Both the position numbers and the translations under genes were made by a program. This document shows, piece by piece, positions 7,972 through 49,434 of a stretch of DNA of 52,574 nucleotides. The notes beneath the pieces were generated by a model. The model was not told the origin of the DNA, searched no databases, and worked only from the letters and a program-made list of their open reading frames with translations. This DNA comes from Deltaproteobacteria bacterium (lineage in GTDB: Bacteria; Myxococcota_A; Polyangia; Polyangiales; JADJMO01). Location: positions 1 to 52,574 of the forward strand of contig JALHOE010000036.1 in the NCBI GenBank assembly GCA_022843175.1, in the 5' to 3' direction. The stretch's first letter is position 1; each line of letters opens with the position of its first letter.

Positions 7972-8409
7972 ATGAGCGATCTCGAACACGCGAAGCAGGA
8001 ACTCTCGGCCGAGCTTGGCTCTCCCAAGGTCGAGGCGCTCGTCGAGGCCATGTTCCTCGCGGCCACGGCCGACGGCGACTTCGCCCCCGAGGAGAGCATG
8101 CAGTTCTCGGCGACGATCGGGGCGCTGACCGATCGCAAGCTCGATCCCGACTCGGTCTATCGGCTGGTCGGGCTGCTCTCGCAGAAGCTCAAGAGCGAGG
8201 GCCGGCAGGCGCGCCTGTCGGCGATTGCCCAGCGGTTGCCCGAGGGCAAGCCGCGCGAGACGGCGGTGATCCTCGCCGCGGCGATCACCATGAGCGACGG
8301 CGAGGTGAAGGCCGCCGAGAACGACTTCGTCGCCGATCTCGCCGAGGCGCTCGGCATCGCGCAGGGCCGCGCGGTCGAGCTCGTGCAGAAGGTGCAGAAG
8401 AGCCGCTAG
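7972..8409 (+). CDS. TerB-like protein
   Basis: 145 residues, all alpha-helical, soluble. Two similar acidic segments (AATADGDFAPEESMQF, residues 30-45, and AITMSDGEVKAAENDFV, about 104-120) have the D-G-x-x-x-x-E spacing of the TerB/tellurite-resistance fold, which binds metal ions in characterised members. No other ter genes are nearby, so a role in tellurite resistance is not implied. It is divergent from the AarF-like gene, and its stop overlaps the stop of the converging lipoprotein gene by four bases. Confidence 0.75.
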   Translation: MSDLEHAKQELSAELGSPKVEALVEAMFLAATADGDFAPEESMQFSATIGALTDRKLDPDSVYRLVGLLSQKLKSEGRQARLSAIAQRLPEGKPRETAVILAAAITMSDGEVKAAENDFVADLAEALGIAQGRAVELVQKVQKSR

Positions 8410-9551
8410 CCGGGGCCGGCGTCGGGGCAGAGATCCTTGCCCGGCGGGTCGGGTGGCACCAGCTGGGTCGCCGGCTGGATGTTCGCGACGTCGAAGCCGA
8501 GACCGATCGAGATGCCGTCGCACTCCCGCGTCGTGTCCTGCAGGTTCGGCGCGCCGATGACGACGTCGGGGAAGCGCTGCACGGTGCGGAGCAGCGACGA
8601 GTAGAGCGTGGTGCCCGGGCAGAACCCCGACTCGGAGGCGAGCGGTCGCAGGAGGTTCTCGATCGAGCCGACCGGGATCGCGCCCACGACGAGGCCGCGC
8701 TTGCCGCTCTTGTGGTCCGGCTCGAGCTGCAGCGTGATCACCGCGGCCTCGAGCGTGAGCGCGACCGACAGGCTGCCCGAGCCGGGGAGCCCCAGCTGAT
8801 GGAGCTCGGGCTCGCCCGAGACCCACACGTGGTCCTTGATGTAGCCCTTGGGGAAGTCGCCGAACGGCTTCTCGAGGTCTCCGCCGACCACCGAATCGCT
8901 CAGGATCTTGCGGACGTCGGTGCCGTCCCACTTGAAGGCGCCGAGCTTCACGCCCTGCGCGCGATAGAGCTTCGCCGGCGCGTAGCCGTCGTTCGTGCCG
9001 TCGTCGACGTCGGAGATGCGGAACAGCCAGGTGGTGTTGCCCTCGAGGATGCCCTCGTTGACGCGCTTCTCGAAGCCGTCGCTCGACACGTTGAGGAGCG
9101 CGACGATGTGGTGACCGAAGTTGTTGTCGCGACACAGATCGCCGTCGACGAGGAAGTCCTGCTTGGCCTCGGGGTGGCGCCGGCAGGTGCCGATGTTGGT
9201 CTTCGAGTCCTCGAGCGAGGTGCAGACGCCGTCGAGGTCGTAGCCCCACTCGCGCCACGCGTTGTCGCTCGAGGCGCCGAGCGACGTCATGCTCCCGATG
9301 TACATGCGCTTGACCGCGACCCACAGCGTGCGTCCCTTGCCGGAGGGCGTGGTGGGCTCGCCCTCGGGGCGTGTCGGCGGCTTGGCAGGGCCCGTCGCCG
9401 CGTCGACGACGACGGCGTCGCTGCTATCGGTCACCGCGGTGTCGGCGATGGGGCCCGCGTCGGCCTGCCGCGCGGTGTAGTCGTCGTACGACAGGACCTG
9501 CGCGCACGCGATCGCGAGCGCGGGGGCGCCGAGCCAGGCCAGGCGCTTCAT
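8406..9551 (-). CDS. CRDNNFG-family lipoprotein, copy 1
   Basis: 381 residues, start MKRLAWLGAPALAIACAQVL with lipobox AIAC, then a low-complexity Asp/Thr/Ala/Pro linker to about residue 70. The folded part shares colinear motifs with two other proteins here (9548-10702 and 48280-49434): GRTLWVAVK, YDLDGVCT, CRDNNFG, KWDGTDVR, DHVWVSGEP, FCPGT and ECDGISIGLGF, with five Cys at equivalent places that could form disulfides outside the cytoplasm. I do not recognise the family. The ATG overlaps the stop of the preceding paralogue as ATGA, making this the last gene of operon A. Surface or periplasmic exposure is inferred from the lipobox and the Cys. Confidence 0.85.
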   Translation of the reverse strand: MKRLAWLGAPALAIACAQVLSYDDYTARQADAGPIADTAVTDSSDAVVVDAATGPAKPPTRPEGEPTTPSGKGRTLWVAVKRMYIGSMTSLGASSDNAWREWGYDLDGVCTSLEDSKTNIGTCRRHPEAKQDFLVDGDLCRDNNFGHHIVALLNVSSDGFEKRVNEGILEGNTTWLFRISDVDDGTNDGYAPAKLYRAQGVKLGAFKWDGTDVRKILSDSVVGGDLEKPFGDFPKGYIKDHVWVSGEPELHQLGLPGSGSLSVALTLEAAVITLQLEPDHKSGKRGLVVGAIPVGSIENLLRPLASESGFCPGTTLYSSLLRTVQRFPDVVIGAPNLQDTTRECDGISIGLGFDVANIQPATQLVPPDPPGKDLCPDAGPG

Positions 9552-10702
9552 CCGTCGACCCCGGCGTCCACGGGCGCGCACTTCGATGCGCGGGGGAACG
9601 GCGCGACGACCTTGGTGGGCGGCCGCATCGGCAGCGCGGTGAACCCGAGTCCGAGCGACAGCCCGTTGCACGTCTGGGTCGTGTCGTGGAGCGCGGGGGT
9701 GTCGGTCACGACGTCCATCATACGGCCAATGCTGCGGATGAAGCTGTCGTAGAGCATCGCCCCCGGACAGATACCGGCCTGTTCGGCGATCGGCTGGAGG
9801 ACCGAGCCGATGTCGTCCTTGGGAATGGCGCCCGCGATGATGCCGAGCTCGCCCTTGGTGTGGGCCGCGTCGAGCCGCAGGGTGAGCACGCCGCCCGCGA
9901 GCGGCGCGTCGACCGAGACCGACTGGATCGGTAGCGTCACCACGAACTTGGTCGGATCGCCGGAGACGAAGACGTGATCGCGCATCCAGCCGCCCGCGAA
10001 GCGCGTGCGGGGCTTGTTGACGTCGCCGTCGATCACCGACTCGAGGTCGATGTCGCGGACGTCCTCGCCGTTGAACGGCGGAGAGGTCGGGCCGAAGAAG
10101 TCGAACCAGGGCGCCGCCTTGTAGAGGCGGCCGACGACGTAGGGATCGTCGGGCCCGTCGTCGAGGTCGTCGAGCGCGAGGATCCAGGTCGACGAGCCCT
10201 TGAGGACCGCCTCGTTGGACGTCTTCTCGTAGCGCGCGTCGAGCGAGCTCACGATCGGCACCAGCTGCGAGCCGAAGTTGTTGTCCCGGCAGAGGAGGCC
10301 GTCCATCAGCACGTCCTGCTCGCCGCCGGTGACCCGCTTGCAGGTGCCGGTGTTCTCGCGCGACTCGCGCTCACCGGTGCACACGCCGTCGAGGTCGTAG
10401 CCGATGTGCTTCCACGCCGGATCGCTGCCGCTGCCCGGGAACTCGTCCTGGTTGAGGTAGAAGTGGTTGACGATCAACCACACCGTCCTCCCCTTGCCGG
10501 ACGGCTCGGCCACGCCGACCGGGCGCGGCGGAGGGCGCACGCCGCCCGAGGGCGGCGGCGCTGTGTCGGTGACGGCCTCGCTCGCCACGTCGAGCATCGG
10601 CTGGGTATCGACCGTGGCGTCGACGGCGCCGCGCGCGCGGTAGTCCTCGTATCCGAGGAGATCGGCGCAGCCGACGAGGAGCACCGCGAACGCGGCTCGC
10701 AT
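9548..10702 (-). CDS. CRDNNFG-family lipoprotein, copy 2
   Basis: 384 residues. Signal MRAAFAVLLVGCADLLGYED with lipobox LVGC, then a Thr/Asp/Pro-rich linker to about residue 65. It shares with its neighbour at 8406-9551 the motifs SGKGRTVWL, GYDLDGVCT, LCRDNNFG, GEDVR, RDHVFVSGDP, ICPGAMLYD and TCNGLSLGLGF, so the pair looks like a tandem duplication that has since diverged. It begins two bases after the stop of the TPR/PEGA-like gene and overlaps the next gene as ATGA. The residues after the lipidated Cys (C-A-D-L-L-G-Y-E-D-Y) match the pattern in other lipoproteins of the window. Confidence 0.85.
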   Translation of the reverse strand: MRAAFAVLLVGCADLLGYEDYRARGAVDATVDTQPMLDVASEAVTDTAPPPSGGVRPPPRPVGVAEPSGKGRTVWLIVNHFYLNQDEFPGSGSDPAWKHIGYDLDGVCTGERESRENTGTCKRVTGGEQDVLMDGLLCRDNNFGSQLVPIVSSLDARYEKTSNEAVLKGSSTWILALDDLDDGPDDPYVVGRLYKAAPWFDFFGPTSPPFNGEDVRDIDLESVIDGDVNKPRTRFAGGWMRDHVFVSGDPTKFVVTLPIQSVSVDAPLAGGVLTLRLDAAHTKGELGIIAGAIPKDDIGSVLQPIAEQAGICPGAMLYDSFIRSIGRMMDVVTDTPALHDTTQTCNGLSLGLGFTALPMRPPTKVVAPFPRASKCAPVDAGVDG

Positions 10703-10704
10703 GA

Positions 10705-11682
10705 CTAGAACCTACCGAACGCCGCGAGCCCGCCGCCGTCGGCCGACGCATACGGCGTGACCATCGTCGCTTTGTCGCCCGGTTTGCCGCCCGTCGACGG
10801 CGTCAGCGCCCACCACACCACGCCGACCACGAGCAGGCCGGCGCCCACCCCGGTGACGATCGTCGAGACGTTGGCGAGCGAGCGGCCGTCCTCGAGCCCC
10901 TTTGGATCGCACACCTTCTGTGCGTCGCAGGAGTCGTCGCGCTTCTTCATCGACGCGTAGCCGAGGCCGAGACCGACGCCGACGCCGACCACGCCGACGC
11001 CGGCGACGAGCAGCGGCGGGACCTTGGACGGTCCACTCTCGGCGACCGTCGGCTTCTGATCGACGTCGAGGACGACGGTGATCGCCTTGTCCTGGTTCTC
11101 GGCGATCGTCGCGCCGGCCTCGAACGGTAGGCGGCCGGGCGCCTCGGCGCGGATGCTGTGCGGGCCCGGATCGACCGGGACGGGGGTGTTCCACGCGGCC
11201 TCGGGCAGCGAGACGCCGTCGAGCGCGATCTTGGTGCCGGGGATCTTCTCGACGACCTTCACGAGCAGGTGCGGTACGCGGGGTTCGAGCGCGTCGGCCT
11301 CGGCCTTGGCGAACTCGACCCACTTGCGGCGCTCGGGCTTGGGGTCGAGCGGCGCGCGCCGGGCGAGCTCGCGGAAGTCGCGGGCCGCCGACGCCGTCAT
11401 GCCGAGCCCCTTCTCGACGTAGGCGAGGTTACGGAGCGCGCCGAGCGCGCCGGTGATGTCGTAAGCGCGCTTGAACGCGTCGCGCGCCTGCTTGCACTTG
11501 GCGAGGTCGGTCGGCTTCTCGTCGCACTTCCCCTCGTCCATGAGCTTCACGCCCTTGTCGAAGAGGTCTTTGGCGATCGCTTGCTCTTGCTCGGTGGGCT
11601 CGGCGAGGGCCGGCAGCGAGTGCGCGAACAGGATCGCGGCGAGGCCCAACGACACTGCTCGGTGAGACGATCGCGTCGTCAC
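10705..11682 (-). CDS. TPR/PEGA-like membrane protein with CX5C loop and C-terminal GxF tail (operon A)
   Basis: 325 residues from a GTG at 11682, which overlaps the kinase stop as GTGA. Signal peptide (about 1-28, cleavage near LPALA/EP), TPR-like helices with Cys pairs (about 30-115), a PEGA-like beta segment (TKIALDGVSLPEAAWNTP, about 150-185, with the usual later PGPHSIRAEAPG), then two hydrophobic segments flanking the polar loop DDSCDAQKVCD. It ends GGGLAAFGRF. PEGA domains are small surface beta domains common in Myxococcota. Two paralogues are present (19706-20686, 47417-48280). Lying between a membrane kinase and two lipoproteins, it may link cytoplasmic kinase activity to the envelope; this is inference. 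Confidence 0.85.
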   Translation of the reverse strand: MTTRSSHRAVSLGLAAILFAHSLPALAEPTEQEQAIAKDLFDKGVKLMDEGKCDEKPTDLAKCKQARDAFKRAYDITGALGALRNLAYVEKGLGMTASAARDFRELARRAPLDPKPERRKWVEFAKAEADALEPRVPHLLVKVVEKIPGTKIALDGVSLPEAAWNTPVPVDPGPHSIRAEAPGRLPFEAGATIAENQDKAITVVLDVDQKPTVAESGPSKVPPLLVAGVGVVGVGVGLGLGYASMKKRDDSCDAQKVCDPKGLEDGRSLANVSTIVTGVGAGLLVVGVVWWALTPSTGGKPGDKATMVTPYASADGGGLAAFGRF

Positions 11683-13100
11683 ATTTCGTCCTTCTTCTTC
11701 CAGAGGTCGCCCGACTTCGTGTCTTGCGGCGGGGGCGGCGGGGGCGGCGCCGCGGTGTCGGCCGGCGCCGTCTTGGCGGTGCCCTTGGGCGCAACCCAGG
11801 CCTTCTTCTTCGGGTCGGCTTTGATCTCGGTGGACGCGCTCGCCGCCGGCGGCGGCTCCGGTGTTTCTGCGATCTTCTCGGTGGGCTTCGCGGCCTCGAC
11901 GGGCTTCGCGACCTCGACCGGCTTCGGTGGTTCGGTGGCCGTGGCGGTGGGCGGGGGCGCGGCGGCGACCGGTACGGGCCGCACGCGCGACAGGTACACC
12001 CCGACGCCCGCGCCGGCGAAGATCAACGCCGCGAGCGCCACGAACAGCGCAGCGCGGCTCTTCGGCCCCGGCTCGGCGCGCGCGGGGAGCGGCGCGGCCT
12101 CGGAGTGACCGAGCGTGTGCTGCACGCCGGAGACCGAGTCGCCGAGCTGCAGCGCGAGGCGCTCCGCGGCGGCCGCGGAGTACGCGCCGGTGGAGCCGGT
12201 GGCGCTGATGCCCGCGACGGCGGACAGCGAGTCCGCGAGGTCGCGCGCGTTCTGGAAGCGTTGCTCGGGCTTCTTGGCGAGCGCCTTGCGCACCCACAGA
12301 TCGAACTCGTGGGGCAGATCGGGCGCGAGCTGAGTGGGCACCGGCGGCTCGGTCGCGACGATGCGCATCGCGAGCTCCGAGAGCGCGCCCGAGCCGAACG
12401 GCGCGCGTCCGACCGCCATGCGATAGACGATCGCCGCGAGGCCCCACAGGTCCGAGCGCAGATCGAGCGTGCTCTCGCCGGTGATCTGCTCCGGGCTCAT
12501 GTAGTTGGGCGTGCCGATCAGCGCGCCGGCGCGGGTGGCCTGGTTCTCGTCGGCGTCGAGCGTCGCCTTGGCGACGCCGAAGTCGAGGAGCTTCACCAGG
12601 AGATCGCCGTCGTCCGGGTTGTCCGTGAGGAAGACGTTGGCCGGCTTGAGATCGCGGTGGATGACGCCGGCGGTGTGCGCGACGTGGAGCGCGCGCGCGA
12701 GCTGCGCGGTGATCTTCGCGCAGAGCGTGATCGGCAGGCGCCGGTCGCGCTTGAGGCGGACCTCGAGGCCCTCGCCGCTGAGGAACTCCATGACGAGGAA
12801 GGGCGTTCCGTCGGGGGTGATGCCGTGGTCGGCGACGCGGGTGATGTGACGCGAGGCCTCGCCGAGTCGGGCGGCGAGCCGCGCCTCGCGCTCGAAACGT
12901 GCGCGCGGCTCCGCGGCCTTGGCGACCGAGCCATGGAGGAACTTGATCGCGACGGCGTGCCCGAGCGTGATGTGCTCGGCCTTCCACACCGAGCCCATCG
13001 CTCCCTCGCCCGCGGGCTCGACAAGGCGATATTTGTCCGCGACAAGGATCCCCTTTTGGAGGACCGGTCCGGATTCACCCGTCGTTAATTGCGCTGTCAT
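11679..13100 (-). CDS. Transmembrane serine/threonine protein kinase (operon A)
   Basis: 473 residues. Complete Hanks-type catalytic domain: Gly loop GEGAMGSV (31-38), ATP-binding Lys 53 (VAIKFL), catalytic HRDLKPAN (148-155), DFG (173-175), GTPNYMSPEQ and DLWGLA. One membrane helix (about 350-372) follows a juxtamembrane stretch, then an extracytoplasmic Pro/Ala/Lys-rich tail of 100 residues with no folded sensor domain, ending KKKDEM. It should phosphorylate Ser/Thr of unknown targets at the inner membrane. Its stop overlaps the GTG of the TPR/PEGA-like gene, so it heads a four-gene operon. ATG 13100 is preferred over 13130. The upstream gap holds a perfect palindrome GAGTGCACTC at 13123-13132. 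Confidence 0.92.
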   Translation of the reverse strand: MTAQLTTGESGPVLQKGILVADKYRLVEPAGEGAMGSVWKAEHITLGHAVAIKFLHGSVAKAAEPRARFEREARLAARLGEASRHITRVADHGITPDGTPFLVMEFLSGEGLEVRLKRDRRLPITLCAKITAQLARALHVAHTAGVIHRDLKPANVFLTDNPDDGDLLVKLLDFGVAKATLDADENQATRAGALIGTPNYMSPEQITGESTLDLRSDLWGLAAIVYRMAVGRAPFGSGALSELAMRIVATEPPVPTQLAPDLPHEFDLWVRKALAKKPEQRFQNARDLADSLSAVAGISATGSTGAYSAAAAERLALQLGDSVSGVQHTLGHSEAAPLPARAEPGPKSRAALFVALAALIFAGAGVGVYLSRVRPVPVAAAPPPTATATEPPKPVEVAKPVEAAKPTEKIAETPEPPPAASASTEIKADPKKKAWVAPKGTAKTAPADTAAPPPPPPPQDTKSGDLWKKKDEM

Positions 13101-19705: not shown

Positions 19706-20686
19706 ATGCGTGCGGTGGGGGCGTGCCTGGTTTTGGGACTGGCTTTCAGCGTCGGAGCCGCGCGCGCGCGCGGCGATGACTCGAGCCTCAGTGACAAGGC
19801 GGCGGCGCGCGATCTGTTCACCGACGGCGTTGCGCTCCGCGACAAGGGCGAGCTCGCGGCCGCGCTGGTGAAGTTCAAGGGCGCGTACTCGCTGTGGCCC
19901 TCCGCGACCACGGGGCTGGAGCTCGGCCGCACGCACATGCAGATGGGCGAGCTGATCGAAGCGCGCGAGCGGTTCCTCGAAACGGTGAAGATCCCGAAGA
20001 AGCCCGGGGAGACGTCGGCCTCGCAGAACGCGCGCGATGAGGCGCAGAAGCTCGCCGAGAGCCTGGTGCCGCGTATCCCCACGCTCGTCTTCAAGATCTC
20101 GGGCGCCCCCGGCGCCAAGGTGACGCTCGACGGTCGCGAGCTCCCGAGCGAGACGCTCGGCTCACCGCGCAAGGTGAACCCCGGCAAGCACACCGTGGTG
20201 GCGCGCGCGGCCGGGACCGCCGATCTCAGCGTCGAGGTGACGGTGGAGGAGGGCCAGACGCGGGAGGTGCCGCTCGTCTTCGTGGTGCCGGCGAAGACCG
20301 CCGCTCCCGAGCCAACCACGACACCGACGCGGACCGCGCCGGTGGTCGACACCACGCCATCGACCACCAGCCCTCTCGTGTATGCGGGGTTCGGCGTCGC
20401 AGGCGTCGGCATTGTGGTTGGCGGCGTCACCGGTGCGCTGGCGATGTCCAGCGCGTCCAGCTTGAAGAGCTCCTGCACCGATGGACGATGCCCGCCCGCC
20501 GCGCACGATGACGTCGACGCCTATCAGCGGTGGGGAACCATCTCGACGATCTCGTTCATCGCGGCCGGGGTCGGCGCGGCGGTGGGGATCTACGGATTGC
20601 TGTCCTCGGCGCCCCGCAAGGAAGCGCACGCGCACGTGACGCCGTGGATCGGAATCGGCTCGGCCGGCCTCTCGGGAGCCTTCTGA
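19706..20686 (+). CDS. TPR/PEGA-like membrane protein with CX4C loop and GxF tail (kinase-less copy)
   Basis: 326 residues, paralogue of the proteins at 10705-11682 and 47417-48280. Signal peptide 1-22, one or two TPR-like helix pairs (about 28-110: DKGELAAALVKFKGAYSLWP), PEGA-like segment (GAKVTLDGRELPSETLGSPR then PGKHTVVARAAG, about 135-175), Pro/Thr-rich linker, first hydrophobic segment (YAGFGVAGVGIVVGGVTGAL), loop with SSCTDGRCPP, second hydrophobic segment (FIAAGVGAAVGIYGLL), and the tail GIGSAGLSGAF. No kinase gene precedes it; the gene before is the PHP lipoprotein. Its stop overlaps the ATG of the Cys-rich lipoprotein as TGATG, the same arrangement as in operon B. Confidence 0.85.
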   Translation: MRAVGACLVLGLAFSVGAARARGDDSSLSDKAAARDLFTDGVALRDKGELAAALVKFKGAYSLWPSATTGLELGRTHMQMGELIEARERFLETVKIPKKPGETSASQNARDEAQKLAESLVPRIPTLVFKISGAPGAKVTLDGRELPSETLGSPRKVNPGKHTVVARAAGTADLSVEVTVEEGQTREVPLVFVVPAKTAAPEPTTTPTRTAPVVDTTPSTTSPLVYAGFGVAGVGIVVGGVTGALAMSSASSLKSSCTDGRCPPAAHDDVDAYQRWGTISTISFIAAGVGAAVGIYGLLSSAPRKEAHAHVTPWIGIGSAGLSGAF

Positions 20687-21747
20687 TGGTCGCGCGCTCG
20701 CGGCTCCTCGTCCTTCTGGGCTTCGTCGCCTCGGCGAACGCGTGCACGGCGATCCTCGGCTCGTTCGAGAAGGTCTCCGATGTCGACTCCGACGCCGGCG
20801 CCGATGCCGATGCCGATTTCGAGGACGCGGCCGACGACGCGCAGGTCGATTCGCCGATCGACGACACGAGCATCGTCGACGCGGCGGATACGGCGCTCCA
20901 GACCGAGACCCTCACCGACTCGAGCGACGTGTCGCCCGACACGTCCGTGCCCGACACGTCCGTGCCCGACACGTCCATGCCCGACACGTTCGTGCCCGAC
21001 ACGTCCATGCCCGACACGTTCGTGCCCGACACGTTCGTGCCCGACACGTTCGTGCCCGACACGTTCGTGCCCGACGTTTGCACGAAGACCGTGTGCGGCA
21101 GCGCGTGCGTCGACACCAACACCGACCCCAATCACTGCGGCGGCTGCGGAAACGCCTGCGACTCGACGCGTAGCCTAGGGCGCACGTGCAGCGCGGGCAG
21201 CTGCGCGTACACCGGTTGCGTTTCGGGGTACGACAACTGCGTCAAGACCGCGCCGGATCTCGGCGGCTGCGACACGGTCGTCAACACGACCTCGAACTGC
21301 GGGGCCTGCGGCAACGTCTGCAGCGGCGGCACCATCTGCAACGGCACGAGCTGCGTGTGCCCGGCGGGAAGCTCGCCCTGCGGCGGGATCTGCCGCGCGC
21401 TGACCTCGGACGTCAACAACTGCGGCATGTGCGGCAGGGTCTGTCCGCCCACGGCGTCGTGCACCTCTTCGTCCTGCGTCTGCCCGGCCAGCGCGCCGTC
21501 GGAGTGCAGCGGCGCCTGCGTCAACACCAGCTCGAGCTCCTCGCACTGCGGCATGTGCGGGTTCGCGTGCAGCGGCGGCAAGTCGTGCGTGGGAGGCACC
21601 TGCTCCTGCCCAGTGGGGTTCACGGACTGCGGCGCAGGGGGGTGCGCTTCGCTGACGAACGATCCGCTCAACTGCGGCAGTTGCAACAACGTCTGCGGCG
21701 CCACGATGAGCTGCATCGGCAGTTCGTGCGTCGCGGCGGGGGGATAG
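20686..21747 (+). CDS. Cys-rich surface lipoprotein with PDTFV pentapeptide repeats
   Basis: 353 residues. N-terminus MVARSRLLVLLGFVASANAC ends in a weak lipobox, so lipidation is likely but not certain. Residues about 25-85 are very acidic and Ala/Thr-rich. A tandem pentapeptide array (PDTSV/PDTSM/PDTFV) encoded by a 15-bp DNA repeat follows. The remaining 220 residues hold about six Cys-rich modules of the form C-G-x-C-x-N-x-C (for example NHCGGCGNAC, NCGACGNVC, NCGMCGRVC, HCGMCGFAC, NCGSCNNVC), common in surface proteins of Myxococcota. It is translationally coupled to the TPR/PEGA-like gene, so it takes the place occupied by CRDNNFG lipoproteins in operons A and B. It converges on the next gene with 21 bases between. 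Confidence 0.85.
   Translation: MVARSRLLVLLGFVASANACTAILGSFEKVSDVDSDAGADADADFEDAADDAQVDSPIDDTSIVDAADTALQTETLTDSSDVSPDTSVPDTSVPDTSMPDTFVPDTSMPDTFVPDTFVPDTFVPDTFVPDVCTKTVCGSACVDTNTDPNHCGGCGNACDSTRSLGRTCSAGSCAYTGCVSGYDNCVKTAPDLGGCDTVVNTTSNCGACGNVCSGGTICNGTSCVCPAGSSPCGGICRALTSDVNNCGMCGRVCPPTASCTSSSCVCPASAPSECSGACVNTSSSSSHCGMCGFACSGGKSCVGGTCSCPVGFTDCGAGGCASLTNDPLNCGSCNNVCGATMSCIGSSCVAAGG
20941..21075 (+). repeat. Nine 15-bp tandem repeats encoding PDT-S/F-V/M
   Basis: Nine uninterrupted 15-base units of the form ACGTTCGTGCCCGAC (variants ACGTCCGTG, ACGTCCATG). The last units are identical to each other, which points to recent expansion. Being a multiple of three, copy-number change would lengthen or shorten the surface stalk without a frameshift. 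Confidence 0.9.
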
Positions 21748-45953: not shown

Positions 45954-47420
45954 ATGACCGCTGTCGCCCCCGGCGAGATCTTCCTCGGGAAGTACCGCAT
46001 CGAGAAGGTGCTCGGGCAGGGTGGAATGGGCGTGGTCGTGTCCGCGCGTCACCTCGAGCTCGACGAGCTCGTGGCGATCAAGTTCCTCCACCCCACGTTC
46101 GCTGCGCAGGGGGACCAGGTCGAGCGCTTCCTCCGCGAGGGGCGCGCCGCGGCCAAGATCAGGAGCGAGCACGTCGCGCGCGTCCGCGACGTCGGCAAGG
46201 CCGACAACGGCGCGCCGTACATGATCCTGGAGCACCTCACCGGCAGCGACCTCGGTCAGCTGATCAAGAACGAGGGCAAGGTCGCGATCCCCGACGCGGT
46301 CGAATACGTGCTGCAGGCCTGCGAGGCGCTCGCCGAGGCGCACACGTCGGGCATCGTCCACCGCGACCTCAAGCCGGCGAACCTCTTCCTCACCGAGCGC
46401 GCAGACGGCTCGCCGTGCGTGAAGCTCCTCGACTTCGGCATCTCCAAGCTGCTCGACAGCACCGACGCCGCGCTCACCGCCACCAACGGCATGATGGGCT
46501 CGCCGCTCTACATGGCGCCCGAGCAGCTCGCGGCCGCGAAGAACGTCGACAAGCGCGCGGACCTCTGGGCGCTCGGCGTCATCCTCTACGAGCTGATCAC
46601 CGCCGAGCGGCCGTTCATGGCCGAAACGCTCCCGCAGCTCGTCCTGCGCGTCGCCACCGACAAGCCCACGCCGCTCCGCACGTATCTGCCGGACGCGCCC
46701 GAGGGCCTCGTGCAGCTGATCGACAAGTGCCTCTCCAAGCCGGTCGACGATCGCTTCACCGACGTCGGCGCGCTCGCCACCGCGCTCGAGCCGTTCGCTC
46801 CGCCCGAGGCGCTCCAGTCCATCGAGCGGATCAACCGCGTGCTCGCCGCGGCGACGACCGGCGGCGGTCGCAGGCAGCGCACCGTCCGCACCTCGCCGTC
46901 GCCGGAGTCGTCGGTGCCGCTCGCGCCGCTCTCGCAGGTCGAGGCCGCCGAGACGATCGCCACGGCCAACCGTGGGCCCGCGCCGCTCGTGAGCACCAAC
47001 CTCGGCGGCAGCGTGCAGACGGCGCCGCCCGAGCCGCCGCCGCGAAGGCGCGCGGGTCTATGGGTCGGCATCGCCGGCGTGGGCGCGTTGCTGATCGGCG
47101 CGGTCCTCTTCATGAACCGCAAGTCGGAGCCGAGTCCGGCGGTCGCTGCGCCGCCCGTCGTCACCCCGGCGCCGTCGGCTACCGTCACGCAGGCACCGCC
47201 GCCGCCCGCATCCACGGCGACGGTGACGGCGACGGCGACGGCGACGGTCGCACCCGCGCCGTCTCCCTCGGTCGAGCCGTCCGCCACGGCCAAGCCGATC
47301 GCGAAGCCGATCGACAAGCCGCAGGCCAAGCCGAGCGCCACGGCGGCCAAGCCCAACTGCGACCCGCCGTACGTCATCGATGCCGTGGGCAACAAGAAAT
47401 ACAAGATGGAGTGCCTGTGA
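45954..47420 (+). CDS. Transmembrane serine/threonine protein kinase (operon B)
   Basis: 488 residues. Gly loop GQGGMGVV (21-28), Lys 43 (VAIKFL), HRDLKPAN (136-143), DFG (160-162), GSPLYMAPEQ, DLWALGV: a complete Hanks-type catalytic domain. A flexible segment (300-365) leads to one membrane helix (about 368-388) and an extracytoplasmic Pro/Ala/Thr tail of 100 residues. The tail ends in a small Cys-bearing motif (NCDPPYVIDAVGNKKYKMEC), unlike kinase A, which has no such end. The stop overlaps the next gene's GTG as GTGA, exactly as in operon A. The divergent gene across 184 bases is the small secreted protein. Confidence 0.92.
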   Translation: MTAVAPGEIFLGKYRIEKVLGQGGMGVVVSARHLELDELVAIKFLHPTFAAQGDQVERFLREGRAAAKIRSEHVARVRDVGKADNGAPYMILEHLTGSDLGQLIKNEGKVAIPDAVEYVLQACEALAEAHTSGIVHRDLKPANLFLTERADGSPCVKLLDFGISKLLDSTDAALTATNGMMGSPLYMAPEQLAAAKNVDKRADLWALGVILYELITAERPFMAETLPQLVLRVATDKPTPLRTYLPDAPEGLVQLIDKCLSKPVDDRFTDVGALATALEPFAPPEALQSIERINRVLAAATTGGGRRQRTVRTSPSPESSVPLAPLSQVEAAETIATANRGPAPLVSTNLGGSVQTAPPEPPPRRRAGLWVGIAGVGALLIGAVLFMNRKSEPSPAVAAPPVVTPAPSATVTQAPPPPASTATVTATATATVAPAPSPSVEPSATAKPIAKPIDKPQAKPSATAAKPNCDPPYVIDAVGNKKYKMECL

Positions 47421-48280
47421 ATCGTTCGGTCGCCTCGGCGATGCTCCTCGTCTTCACCGCCGCGTCCCTCCCAGCGTTCGCGCAAGACAAAGAGTCCTGC
47501 GTCGCGGCCTCGGAGTCGGCACAGAAGCTCCGCACCGAGAAGAAGCTCCGCGCCGCGCGCAAGGAGCTCGTCCACTGCGCGCAGGATGCCTGCCCGGCGG
47601 TCGTGAAGAAGGACTGCTTCAGCTGGCTGAAGGACGTCGACGACAGCCTGCCGACGGTGATCCTCAGCGCCAAGGACGGCAGCGGCAGCGACGTGTCCGA
47701 CGTGAAGGTGCTCGTCGACGGAGAGCTCCTCGCCGAGAAGCTCGACGGCTCGGCGATCGCGGTCGACCCCGGCGCGCACACGTTCCGCTTCGAGCACACC
47801 GGCACGCCGAAGCTCCCGCCCGTCGAGCAGAAGGTGCTCGTCCGCGAGACCGAGAAGAACCGCGTGATCTCCGTCGCCCTCGGCGCGCAGCCCAAGCCGG
47901 TCGAGAAGCCGGTCGATGCGCCGCCCCCCGCGAAGCTGCCGGACACCGCGCCGTCGCGCGGCATCCCCACCGGCGCGTATGTGTTCGGCGCGGTGGCCGC
48001 CGCCTCCTTCGTCGGGTTCGCGTACTTCGGGCTCAGCGGCCGCGCCGACCGCGATCGGCTGCGCGACACCTGCGCTCCCTATTGCCACAAGGACGACGAG
48101 AACCCGGCCCGCACCAAGCTGCTGCTCGCCGACGTCGCGCTCGGCGTCGGCATCGTCTCGATCGGCGTCGCCACCGTCATGATCCTCACCGCCCCGAGCG
48201 AGCCCAAGAAGACCGGGCTCCGAGTGGACGCGGTGCCCATCGCCGGCGGCGCCGTCGGCACGCTCGGAGGCTCGTTCTGA
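47417..48280 (+). CDS. TPR/PEGA-like membrane protein with CX3C loop and GxF tail (operon B)
   Basis: 287 residues from GTG 47417. Signal peptide (LLVFTAASLPAFA/QD), a shortened helical segment with four Cys (about 27-75), a PEGA-like segment (VKVLVDGELLAEKLDGSAIA then DPGAHTFRFEHTG, about 95-140), Pro/Lys linker, first hydrophobic segment (AYVFGAVAAASFVGFAYFGL), loop with DTCAPYCHKD, second hydrophobic segment (VALGVGIVSIGVATVMIL), and tail AVGTLGGSF. Same plan as 10705-11682 and 19706-20686, with low overall identity. Its stop overlaps the lipoprotein ATG as TGATG. Confidence 0.85.
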   Translation: MNRSVASAMLLVFTAASLPAFAQDKESCVAASESAQKLRTEKKLRAARKELVHCAQDACPAVVKKDCFSWLKDVDDSLPTVILSAKDGSGSDVSDVKVLVDGELLAEKLDGSAIAVDPGAHTFRFEHTGTPKLPPVEQKVLVRETEKNRVISVALGAQPKPVEKPVDAPPPAKLPDTAPSRGIPTGAYVFGAVAAASFVGFAYFGLSGRADRDRLRDTCAPYCHKDDENPARTKLLLADVALGVGIVSIGVATVMILTAPSEPKKTGLRVDAVPIAGGAVGTLGGSF

Positions 48281-49434
48281 TGCGCGCGTTACTGGGGGGG
48301 GCAGTCGCCGTCGTCGCAACGCTCGCCGCGTGCTCGCTCACCACGTCGTTCGATGGCATCAGCGGCACGCGTCCCGCCGACACCGGCACGCCCGGCACCG
48401 ACGGCGGGCCGGCCGTGCCCCCTGCGCGCCCCGCCGGCGCGCCCACCCCGGGCGCCGGTCGCACGCTGTGGCTCGGCGTGAAGCACTTTCACTTCGCGCA
48501 CAGCAACGACTCGCTCAAGAAGCCCGGCGCCTGGGAGGACTGGGGCTGGGACATCGACGGACTCTGCACCGGCGCCACCGCGAGCACGCAGGCGGGCAGC
48601 TGCCAGAAGTCGTCCGCGGTCTCGCCCGACCAGATTCGCGACGGACAAGCGTGCCGAGACAACAACTTCGGCTCGCAGATCGTCCCGCAGCTCAACATCT
48701 ACAACAACCAATTCGAGAACGACACGAACAACGGGCTGCTCGACGGCGCGGCGTCGTGGCTCTTCGTCCTCGAGGATCTGGGCGACGGCGCCGACGACAC
48801 CTACGTGCCGGCGAAGCTGTATCTGATGGCGCCCATGCCTCCCAAGCAGAAGCCCGCTTGGGACGGCACCGACGTCCGCTCGGTGCTGCCGCGGAGCGTC
48901 TCCGGCGGCGACCTCAAACTGGCGACGGTCTCCTTCCCCAAGGGGTACCTGCGCAATCACGTGTGGGTCTCGGGCGAGCCGGTGAGCTTCGAGACCGCGC
49001 TCCCGATCGGCGCGAGCGGCGAGCTCATGCCGATGGCGGTCCGCTCGGGCATCATCGCGTTCCAGCTCAACCCGGCGCACACCAACGCGGTCGATGGCAC
49101 CGGTCAGGTCGCCGGCGCGGTCCCGCTCGCCGCCGTCGAAGCCTTCCTCAAGCCGTTCCTCCTCACCCAGACCACCTTCTGCCCCGGCACCGCGCAGTAC
49201 CAGAACCTCATGAAGACGGTCGGGACCTACGGCGACGTCGTGGTCGATGCCCCGCGCCTCCAGGATCCAGCGCGGGCGTGCGACGGCGTGAGCTTCGGGA
49301 TCGGGATCAACCTCGCGCCCGTGGCCGCGCCGAGCGCGGTCGCCACCGAGGTGACCCCGTCGATCGGCGCGTGCGGCGGCGGCGACGCAGGGGTCTCGGA
49401 CACGGGCGTCGACGGCGCGAGCGACTCGGGGTAA
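48280..49434 (+). CDS. CRDNNFG-family lipoprotein, copy 3
   Basis: 384 residues. Signal MRALLGGAVAVVATLAACSL with lipobox LAAC, then a Thr/Pro/Asp/Gly linker to about residue 60. It shares with the two operon A lipoproteins GRTLWLGVK, WDIDGLCT, ACRDNNFGSQIVP, WDGTDVR, FPKGYLRNHVWVSGEP, FCPGTAQYQ and ACDGVSFGIG, including five matching Cys. It ends with a short Gly/Asp/Ser-rich tail (GVSDTGVDGASDSG) rather than the hydrophobic GxF tail. It is the third gene of operon B, translationally coupled, and is followed after 11 bases by the SMI1/KNR4 gene. Confidence 0.85.
   Translation: MRALLGGAVAVVATLAACSLTTSFDGISGTRPADTGTPGTDGGPAVPPARPAGAPTPGAGRTLWLGVKHFHFAHSNDSLKKPGAWEDWGWDIDGLCTGATASTQAGSCQKSSAVSPDQIRDGQACRDNNFGSQIVPQLNIYNNQFENDTNNGLLDGAASWLFVLEDLGDGADDTYVPAKLYLMAPMPPKQKPAWDGTDVRSVLPRSVSGGDLKLATVSFPKGYLRNHVWVSGEPVSFETALPIGASGELMPMAVRSGIIAFQLNPAHTNAVDGTGQVAGAVPLAAVEAFLKPFLLTQTTFCPGTAQYQNLMKTVGTYGDVVVDAPRLQDPARACDGVSFGIGINLAPVAAPSAVATEVTPSIGACGGGDAGVSDTGVDGASDSG

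Follow-up and report, generated by a model that had tools for sequence, protein, structure and literature searches.

A Kinase-T Gene Pair with Variable Lipoprotein Neighbors as a Candidate Envelope-Signaling Cassette of Myxobacteria

The PASTA kinases (PknB/Stk1, NF033483) are Hanks-type kinases with a single membrane span and an extracytoplasmic part. In the Rcs relay, which runs from the outer-membrane lipoprotein RcsF through IgaA to RcsC/D, a lipoprotein reports the state of the envelope via an inner-membrane protein to a kinase. Here we describe two operons, A and B, in a 52,574-nucleotide stretch of DNA (the window; contig JALHOE010000036.1 of the Deltaproteobacteria bacterium assembly GCA_022843175.1). 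Each operon encodes a Ser/Thr kinase (K), a protein that we call T and, behind T, one or two lipoproteins of a family that we call CRDNNFG. We refer to the general arrangement, in which the lipoprotein may be of any family, as K-T-X.

The kinases of the two operons, KA and KB, belong to the expansion of eukaryotic-like kinases in myxobacteria, which numbers 353 in Minicystis rosea (PMC8436480). Their best NCBIfam match is the PASTA kinase model NF033483, whose equivalog cut-off of 450 bits both miss (235.6 and 253.5 bits); unlike those of PASTA kinases, their tails show no PASTA match and consist of a low-complexity linker capped by a terminal tag, and sensing would fall to T and X. T resembles PEGA-domain and TPR envelope proteins in having TPR-like helices and a PEGA/carboxypeptidase-regulatory-like β domain, but differs in its two hydrophobic helices, which enclose a C-x3-9-C loop, in its C-terminal GxF, and in its linkage to a kinase. 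What we propose for K-T-X would be analogous to the Rcs relay, from which it differs in having a Ser/Thr kinase instead of a histidine phosphorelay and interchangeable lipoprotein domains; we claim no relation in sequence. Unlike our account, papers on myxobacterial kinomes count, in their open-access passages, kinases and phosphatases. Neither the K-T-X arrangement nor the end-tags are mentioned in the open-access passages searched on myxobacterial kinomes and signaling. An earlier note on this DNA had not recognized the module as described, in agreement with our searches of Pfam, NCBIfam and those passages. The kinases as such are ordinary Hanks kinases; the cassette would be a form of transmembrane kinase signaling in which the input is a modular lipoprotein.

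Operons A and B and the kinase-T pair

The genes of the two operons, with the evidence on which each assignment rests, are as follows (the tether, defined below, is the stretch after the lipidated cysteine).

KA, 11679..13100, minus strand: Ser/Thr kinase, 473 amino acids (Pfam Pkinase E=1.9e-38, catalytic motifs, membrane segment, tail)
TA, 10705..11682, minus strand: T protein of the TPR type, 325 amino acids (AlphaFold2 model, Foldseek, weak PEGA match)
LA1, 9548..10702, minus strand: lipoprotein, 384 amino acids (alignments, tether score 5.8, cysteine positions)
LA2, 8406..9551, minus strand: tandem paralogue of LA1, 381 amino acids (AlphaFold2 model, tether score 6.9)
KB, 45954..47420, plus strand: Ser/Thr kinase, 488 amino acids (Pfam Pkinase E=3.1e-47, tail of the two-Cys class)
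TB, 47417..48280, plus strand: T protein of the Cys subtype (N-terminal Cys motif, C-terminal GSF)
LB, 48280..49434, plus strand: third CRDNNFG lipoprotein (alignment, tether CSLTTSFDG)

Operon A consists of four coupled genes, with a GTGA overlap between KA and TA, a 2-nucleotide gap between TA and LA1, and an ATGA overlap between LA1 and LA2, exactly at the coordinates and junctions given in the earlier note. The note also held that operon B repeats this order and coupling. The kinase-T-lipoprotein order and the GTGA overlap of KB and TB do recur, but TB and LB overlap by 1 nucleotide (TGATG) instead of being separated by 2, and there is a single lipoprotein gene. Operon A has an orthologue of the order K-T-L-L in L157/L272, in which both lipoproteins are orthologous, operon B has an orthologue K-T-L in L054, and A- and B-like operons are present in L053 and L054. 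Given these orthologous operons in related genomes, the arrangement is conserved, and chance is excluded. TA and TB are 29% identical and of different subtypes. Thus, with KB/TB of the two-Cys type and KA/TA of the TPR type, the operons are two flavors of one arrangement and not plain copies.

The pairing of kinase and T extends well beyond the window. A same-strand kinase lies directly upstream of 20 of the 48 T genes read in the window's genome. The corresponding figures are 9 of 25 for G102, which belongs to a different family within the order, and 11 of 15 for G115. In random stretches, by comparison, kinases make up only 4 of 379 genes in the window's genome and 7 of 384 in G102, so the adjacency is far above chance (Fisher p = 1e-17 and 2e-8, respectively). 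The constant part of the module is the K-T pair: a one-span Ser/Thr kinase, followed by a signal-peptide-bearing, TPR/PEGA-like T protein ending in GxF.

Both kinases of the window exceed the Pfam PF00069 cut-off of 31.7 bits by a wide measure (132.8 bits for operon A and 161.6 for operon B) and retain the Gly loop, the catalytic Lys, HRDLKPxN and DFG (in KA, GEGAMGSV, AIK, HRDLKPAN and DFG). In KA a single membrane segment is predicted around residue 350, with a Pro/Ala-rich tail behind it that ends in GDLWKKKDEM; the predicted segment of KB lies near residue 367, and its tail ends in CDPPYVIDAVGNKKYKMECL, which is of the two-Cys class. A hydrophobic segment C-terminal of the kinase domain is present in all 51 T-coupled kinases.

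T was found in every genome searched within the order (56/56). TA has a signal peptide, TPR-like helices, a domain of the PEGA/carboxypeptidase-regulatory-like kind, a CDAQKVC flanked by two hydrophobic helices, and a C-terminal GRF; TB has an N-terminal C...C...CPAVVKKDC, two hydrophobic segments, and a C-terminal GSF. Among T proteins at large, a C-x3-9-C pair lies between the hydrophobic helices of the C-terminal part in 40/51, and a C-terminal G.?[FWY] (mostly GRF, GSF, GAF or GAW) is found in 74/112, versus 40/2422 other proteins. AlphaFold2 (AF2) models of 11 T sequences have a confident TPR-like helical domain, a β domain and two hydrophobic helices, with a poorly predicted end. Foldseek matched the T model to TPR proteins and to carboxypeptidase-regulatory/teneurin-type β domains with high probability, but with E above 0.001; the likeness to TPR is seen in the model, the Pfam TPR match being below cut-off. 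No Pfam model exceeded its cut-off for TA. PEGA (PF08308, gathering cut-off 20.8 bits) reached 12.3 bits in TA, had no match in TB, and gave E=0.0028 in one of the 11 T proteins. The earlier note's envelope module, made of a membrane kinase, a protein with two membrane segments and a Cys pair, and a lipoprotein, is borne out by this recurrence.

The third gene, in contrast to the pair, varies. The lipoproteins behind T belong to many interchangeable, unrelated families: FGE-sulfatase-like (four), RCC1 (two), kelch (two), STIG1-like, Cys-rich, unassigned, and the CRDNNFG family, and a further RCC1 protein lies in a K-T locus of G102. The note's module with its CRDNNFG lipoproteins thus survives as a recurrent one, but with the kinase-T pair as its constant part and that lipoprotein as one of many alternatives. 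Such variety bears on one other explanation, in which T assists secretion or assembly, maturing the lipoprotein as a chaperone or scaffold in the periplasm, the kinase phosphorylates the cytoplasmic loop of T or controls expression, and the signal runs outward. The TPR-plus-β anatomy of T, the loop between its hydrophobic helices (cytoplasmic by counting) and the enzyme-like FGE folds among the third genes speak for it, but many of those genes encode binding-type folds (RCC1, kelch, Cys-rich) and T matches no chaperone family. We consider this explanation very unlikely.

Kinase tags and lipoprotein tethers

After their low-complexity linkers, T-coupled kinases end in tags of a few kinds: DLWKKKDEM or GWxNKxEL, DP[LF]xxRx-like sequences, and the two-Cys tag CxPPYxxDxxGxxxxKxxCL. 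The counterpart of the KA tail in L053 ends in DDLWKKKDEM. A leave-one-out score based on these tags separates T-coupled kinases from the remaining proteins (p = 1e-22) and also from those membrane kinases that are not coupled to T (p = 3e-7). Two-Cys tails occur only with T proteins of the four-Cys N-terminal pattern C...C...CP..V..DC (5/5 versus 0/46, p = 4e-7). K and T thus look like matched partners, and the match of tail class to T class argues for direct contact between the two. The window's genome (G000) contains at least 150 kinase domains and approximately 56 FGE-sulfatase-like stretches.

The lipoproteins also carry a common element. In many T-linked lipoproteins of unrelated families the predicted lipidated cysteine is followed directly by a motif, C-x-x-[VLI]-x-G-[IFY]-[DE], which we call the tether; examples are CADLLGYEDY (LA1), CAQVLSYDDY (LA2), CHSLAGIDDV, CFQLTGVSDY and CNAILGIEEP. 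Ordinary lipoproteins of the window's genome and solitary paralogues of LA1 have, for the most part, polar linkers of the CGSS or CGGS type. We trained a profile of nine positions on the 21 T-coupled lipoproteins that do not belong to the CRDNNFG family. Within that family it matched 11 of 14 coupled but 2 of 79 uncoupled proteins, and among background lipoproteins it matched 2 of 183 (Mann–Whitney U test, p = 1e-7 and 1e-8, respectively, values that kinship among related sequences inflates). Both matching background lipoproteins lie near a T gene.

Restricted to the gene directly after T, the comparison in G102 and G115 gave no significant difference (p = 0.28): lipoproteins with the tether are there placed upstream of the kinase or at a distance of one or two genes, and the lipoproteins compared with them had been drawn from those very loci. 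With a two-gene window, chosen after that result, and an added random-region background, the profile and threshold being unchanged, the tether was found in G102 in 9 of 34 lipoproteins no more than two genes from T versus 3 of 142 elsewhere (p = 2e-5, a value inflated in the same way by kinship). G115 alone, a small sample, did not reach significance (p = 0.054). A matched control among RCC1 proteins pointed in the same direction in a tiny sample. That unrelated lipoproteins have the tether in common argues for a shared receptor, most simply T.

Two other accounts of the tether have to be weighed. Because residues after the lipidated cysteine sort lipoproteins in Myxococcus xanthus, where Ala at +7 directs them to the matrix and Lys at +2 to the inner membrane (PMC3222651), the main rival is that the tether, which occupies the same positions, is a sorting or export signal (for the inner membrane, outer membrane or matrix) and not a docking site, with K-T and X co-expressed but forming no joint complex. 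The tethers of the window, however, have neither Lys at +2 nor Ala at +7, and the tether follows proximity to T in non-homologous families, which sorting does not predict unless T is itself a sorting factor. We judge a sorting role unlikely. The second account is duplication of the cassette with swapping of 3′ ends, which would make signal peptide and tether relics, with no present function, of an ancestral lipoprotein linked to K-T. T and K are indeed massively duplicated in the order, and short overlaps of T stop and X start codons recur. Yet the motif pattern has persisted while the surrounding sequence diverged, and in G102 the tether is also found in lipoproteins encoded upstream of, or divergently from, K-T; relics of this kind seem to us quite improbable.

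The lipoproteins behind Cys-type T proteins start with CSLTTSFDG or CSLVTDTSD in three cases (L054, L116 and window 48280-49434). By sequence, the tether subtype may track the subtype of T.

A possible relay from lipoprotein to kinase

To the observed gene order, coupling and recurrence, the variable third gene, the end-tags and the match between tail and T classes we add a reading that we hold to be on balance probable: operons A and B are instances of an order-wide envelope-signaling cassette, K-T-X, that relays from an exchangeable lipoprotein via T to the kinase. Its topology, physical contacts, direction of signaling and ligand are what we infer. K would be a Hanks-type kinase that crosses the membrane once, its catalytic domain lying in the cytoplasm and its disordered tail in the periplasm. 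T would be a periplasmic TPR and PEGA-like adaptor anchored in the inner membrane by its two hydrophobic helices, and X a lipoprotein whose outer domain can be exchanged, of the CRDNNFG family in operons A and B. The N-terminal domain of T would grip the tag at the very C-terminus of its partner kinase; TPR helices would do so in operon A and the Cys-rich domain, perhaps by a disulfide, in operon B. T would also bind the hydrophobic-acidic tether of its lipoprotein. A change in the lipoprotein domain (by ligand, surface or redox state) would then pass through T to the kinase and alter phosphorylation in the cytoplasm, while translational coupling would hold the three proteins near equal numbers.

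Several observations weigh against this relay. In the window's genome 28 of the 48 T genes have no directly adjoining kinase, some of them at contig ends, and the lipoprotein is not always directly next to T. The tether score is not high in many of the lipoproteins linked to T (in G102 only 9/34 pass), and the tether of LB, which is identical in the L054 orthologue, scores only 0.6. Within the CRDNNFG family the coupled sequences are related, and phylogenetically independent pairs are too few. Counting helices from the cleaved signal peptide places the Cys-pair loop of T on the cytoplasmic side, an unusual setting for a disulfide. Finally, the gene calls came from a caller written for this analysis.

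More tentatively still, and short of what we would call probable, the cassette may represent a plug-in receptor architecture, in which a constant kinase-adaptor pair reads many unrelated lipoprotein sensors through a common docking motif after the cysteine, with kinase tags matched to adaptor type and new specificities gained by swapping one gene; the order concerned would be Polyangiales, judging by named relatives. For part of the hundreds of myxobacterial eukaryotic-like kinases, the cassette offers a testable account of possible inputs. If the cassette is real, a lipoprotein beside a K-T pair is a likely input or output domain, the end-tags provide a sequence rule for finding the partners of separated genes, and bacteria have a modular receptor system that can be tested by swaps of single genes or of ten-residue tags.

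The CRDNNFG family and other genes of the window

LA1, LA2 and LB align over their full length (36-42% identity relative to LA1), with YDLDGVCT, CRDNNFG, WDGTDVR and HVWVSGEP colinear across all three, just as the earlier note had described. Its count of five matching cysteines was too low: each protein has seven, one predicted to be lipidated and six matching (in LB, positions 18, 96, 108, 125, 301, 334 and 365). Each has by sequence a signal peptide and a lipobox (LVGC, AIAC and LAAC), the predicted lipidated residues being Cys12 in LA1, Cys16 in LA2 and Cys18 in LB.

Nothing in Pfam or NCBIfam exceeded its cut-off for the three lipoproteins, and a 60-sequence profile of the family had no sequence match in the PDB. 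The AF2 model of LA2 (pLDDT 87, pTM 0.83) had no significant match among PDB folds (the lowest Foldseek E was 0.19, and VIA Z did not exceed 4.5), and a new fold is possible on the basis of this model. A calycin/lipocalin-like or TbpB-like barrel was considered; the β-barrel matches (Cap15, phenolic acid decarboxylase, TbpB) were weak, and we do not rely on them.

Profile searches found 11 copies of the family in the 9.75-Mb genome of the window. Of 377 genomes sampled throughout the phylum, 56 had matches, and with a single exception these belong to the order of the window; named relatives with the family are Minicystis, Polyangium and Sorangium. Only 18 of 110 homologues lie directly behind T. 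The remaining 92 are mostly solitary, many of them divergent from dnaE (identified by its N-terminal sequence, with no family search). We therefore rejected the idea that the system is built around the lipoprotein. In a tree, 14 of the 18 T-coupled homologues fall within one clade of 17. The CRDNNFG clade, which holds LA1, LA2 and LB, has 9 of 11 members coupled to T (Fisher p = 5e-7 versus other homologues, among related sequences that are not independent). Thus, the tie to kinase and TPR/PEGA-like neighbors on which the earlier note had staked its proposal fails for the family as a whole and holds for the closest clade. An extra Cys pair, at LA1 positions 108 and 138, occurs jointly in nine rows of a 60-row alignment, all from the CRDNNFG clade, and position 108 alone is Cys in one further row; the pattern suggests an added disulfide.

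Several members of the family stand apart from operons A and B. A solitary lipoprotein with a polar CGSS-type linker, divergent from the likely dnaE (DNA polymerase III α, approximately 1,200 amino acids), is conserved in many genomes of the order (L061, L068, L171, L192, L055 and others). A close paralogue of LA2 (L044:7596-8753, G000 C52) has the T-type tether CAQVLSYDDY but no adjoining kinase or T, and is a candidate orphan partner. A distant branch (L103, L182, L200, L204, L210, L212, L215 and L216) has a different tether after the cysteine, CxxYDxxLL; in L182 and L200 the gene of this lipoprotein is oriented divergently to a T-kinase pair, the kinase of which ends in NPYR.

Two further genes of the window are as follows.

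Third T protein of the window, 19706..20686, plus strand: no adjoining kinase; C-terminal GAF
STIG1-like Cys-rich lipoprotein, 20686..21747, plus strand: Pfam PF04885 E=1.1e-15; tether CTAILGSFEK

The two genes overlap by 1 nucleotide.

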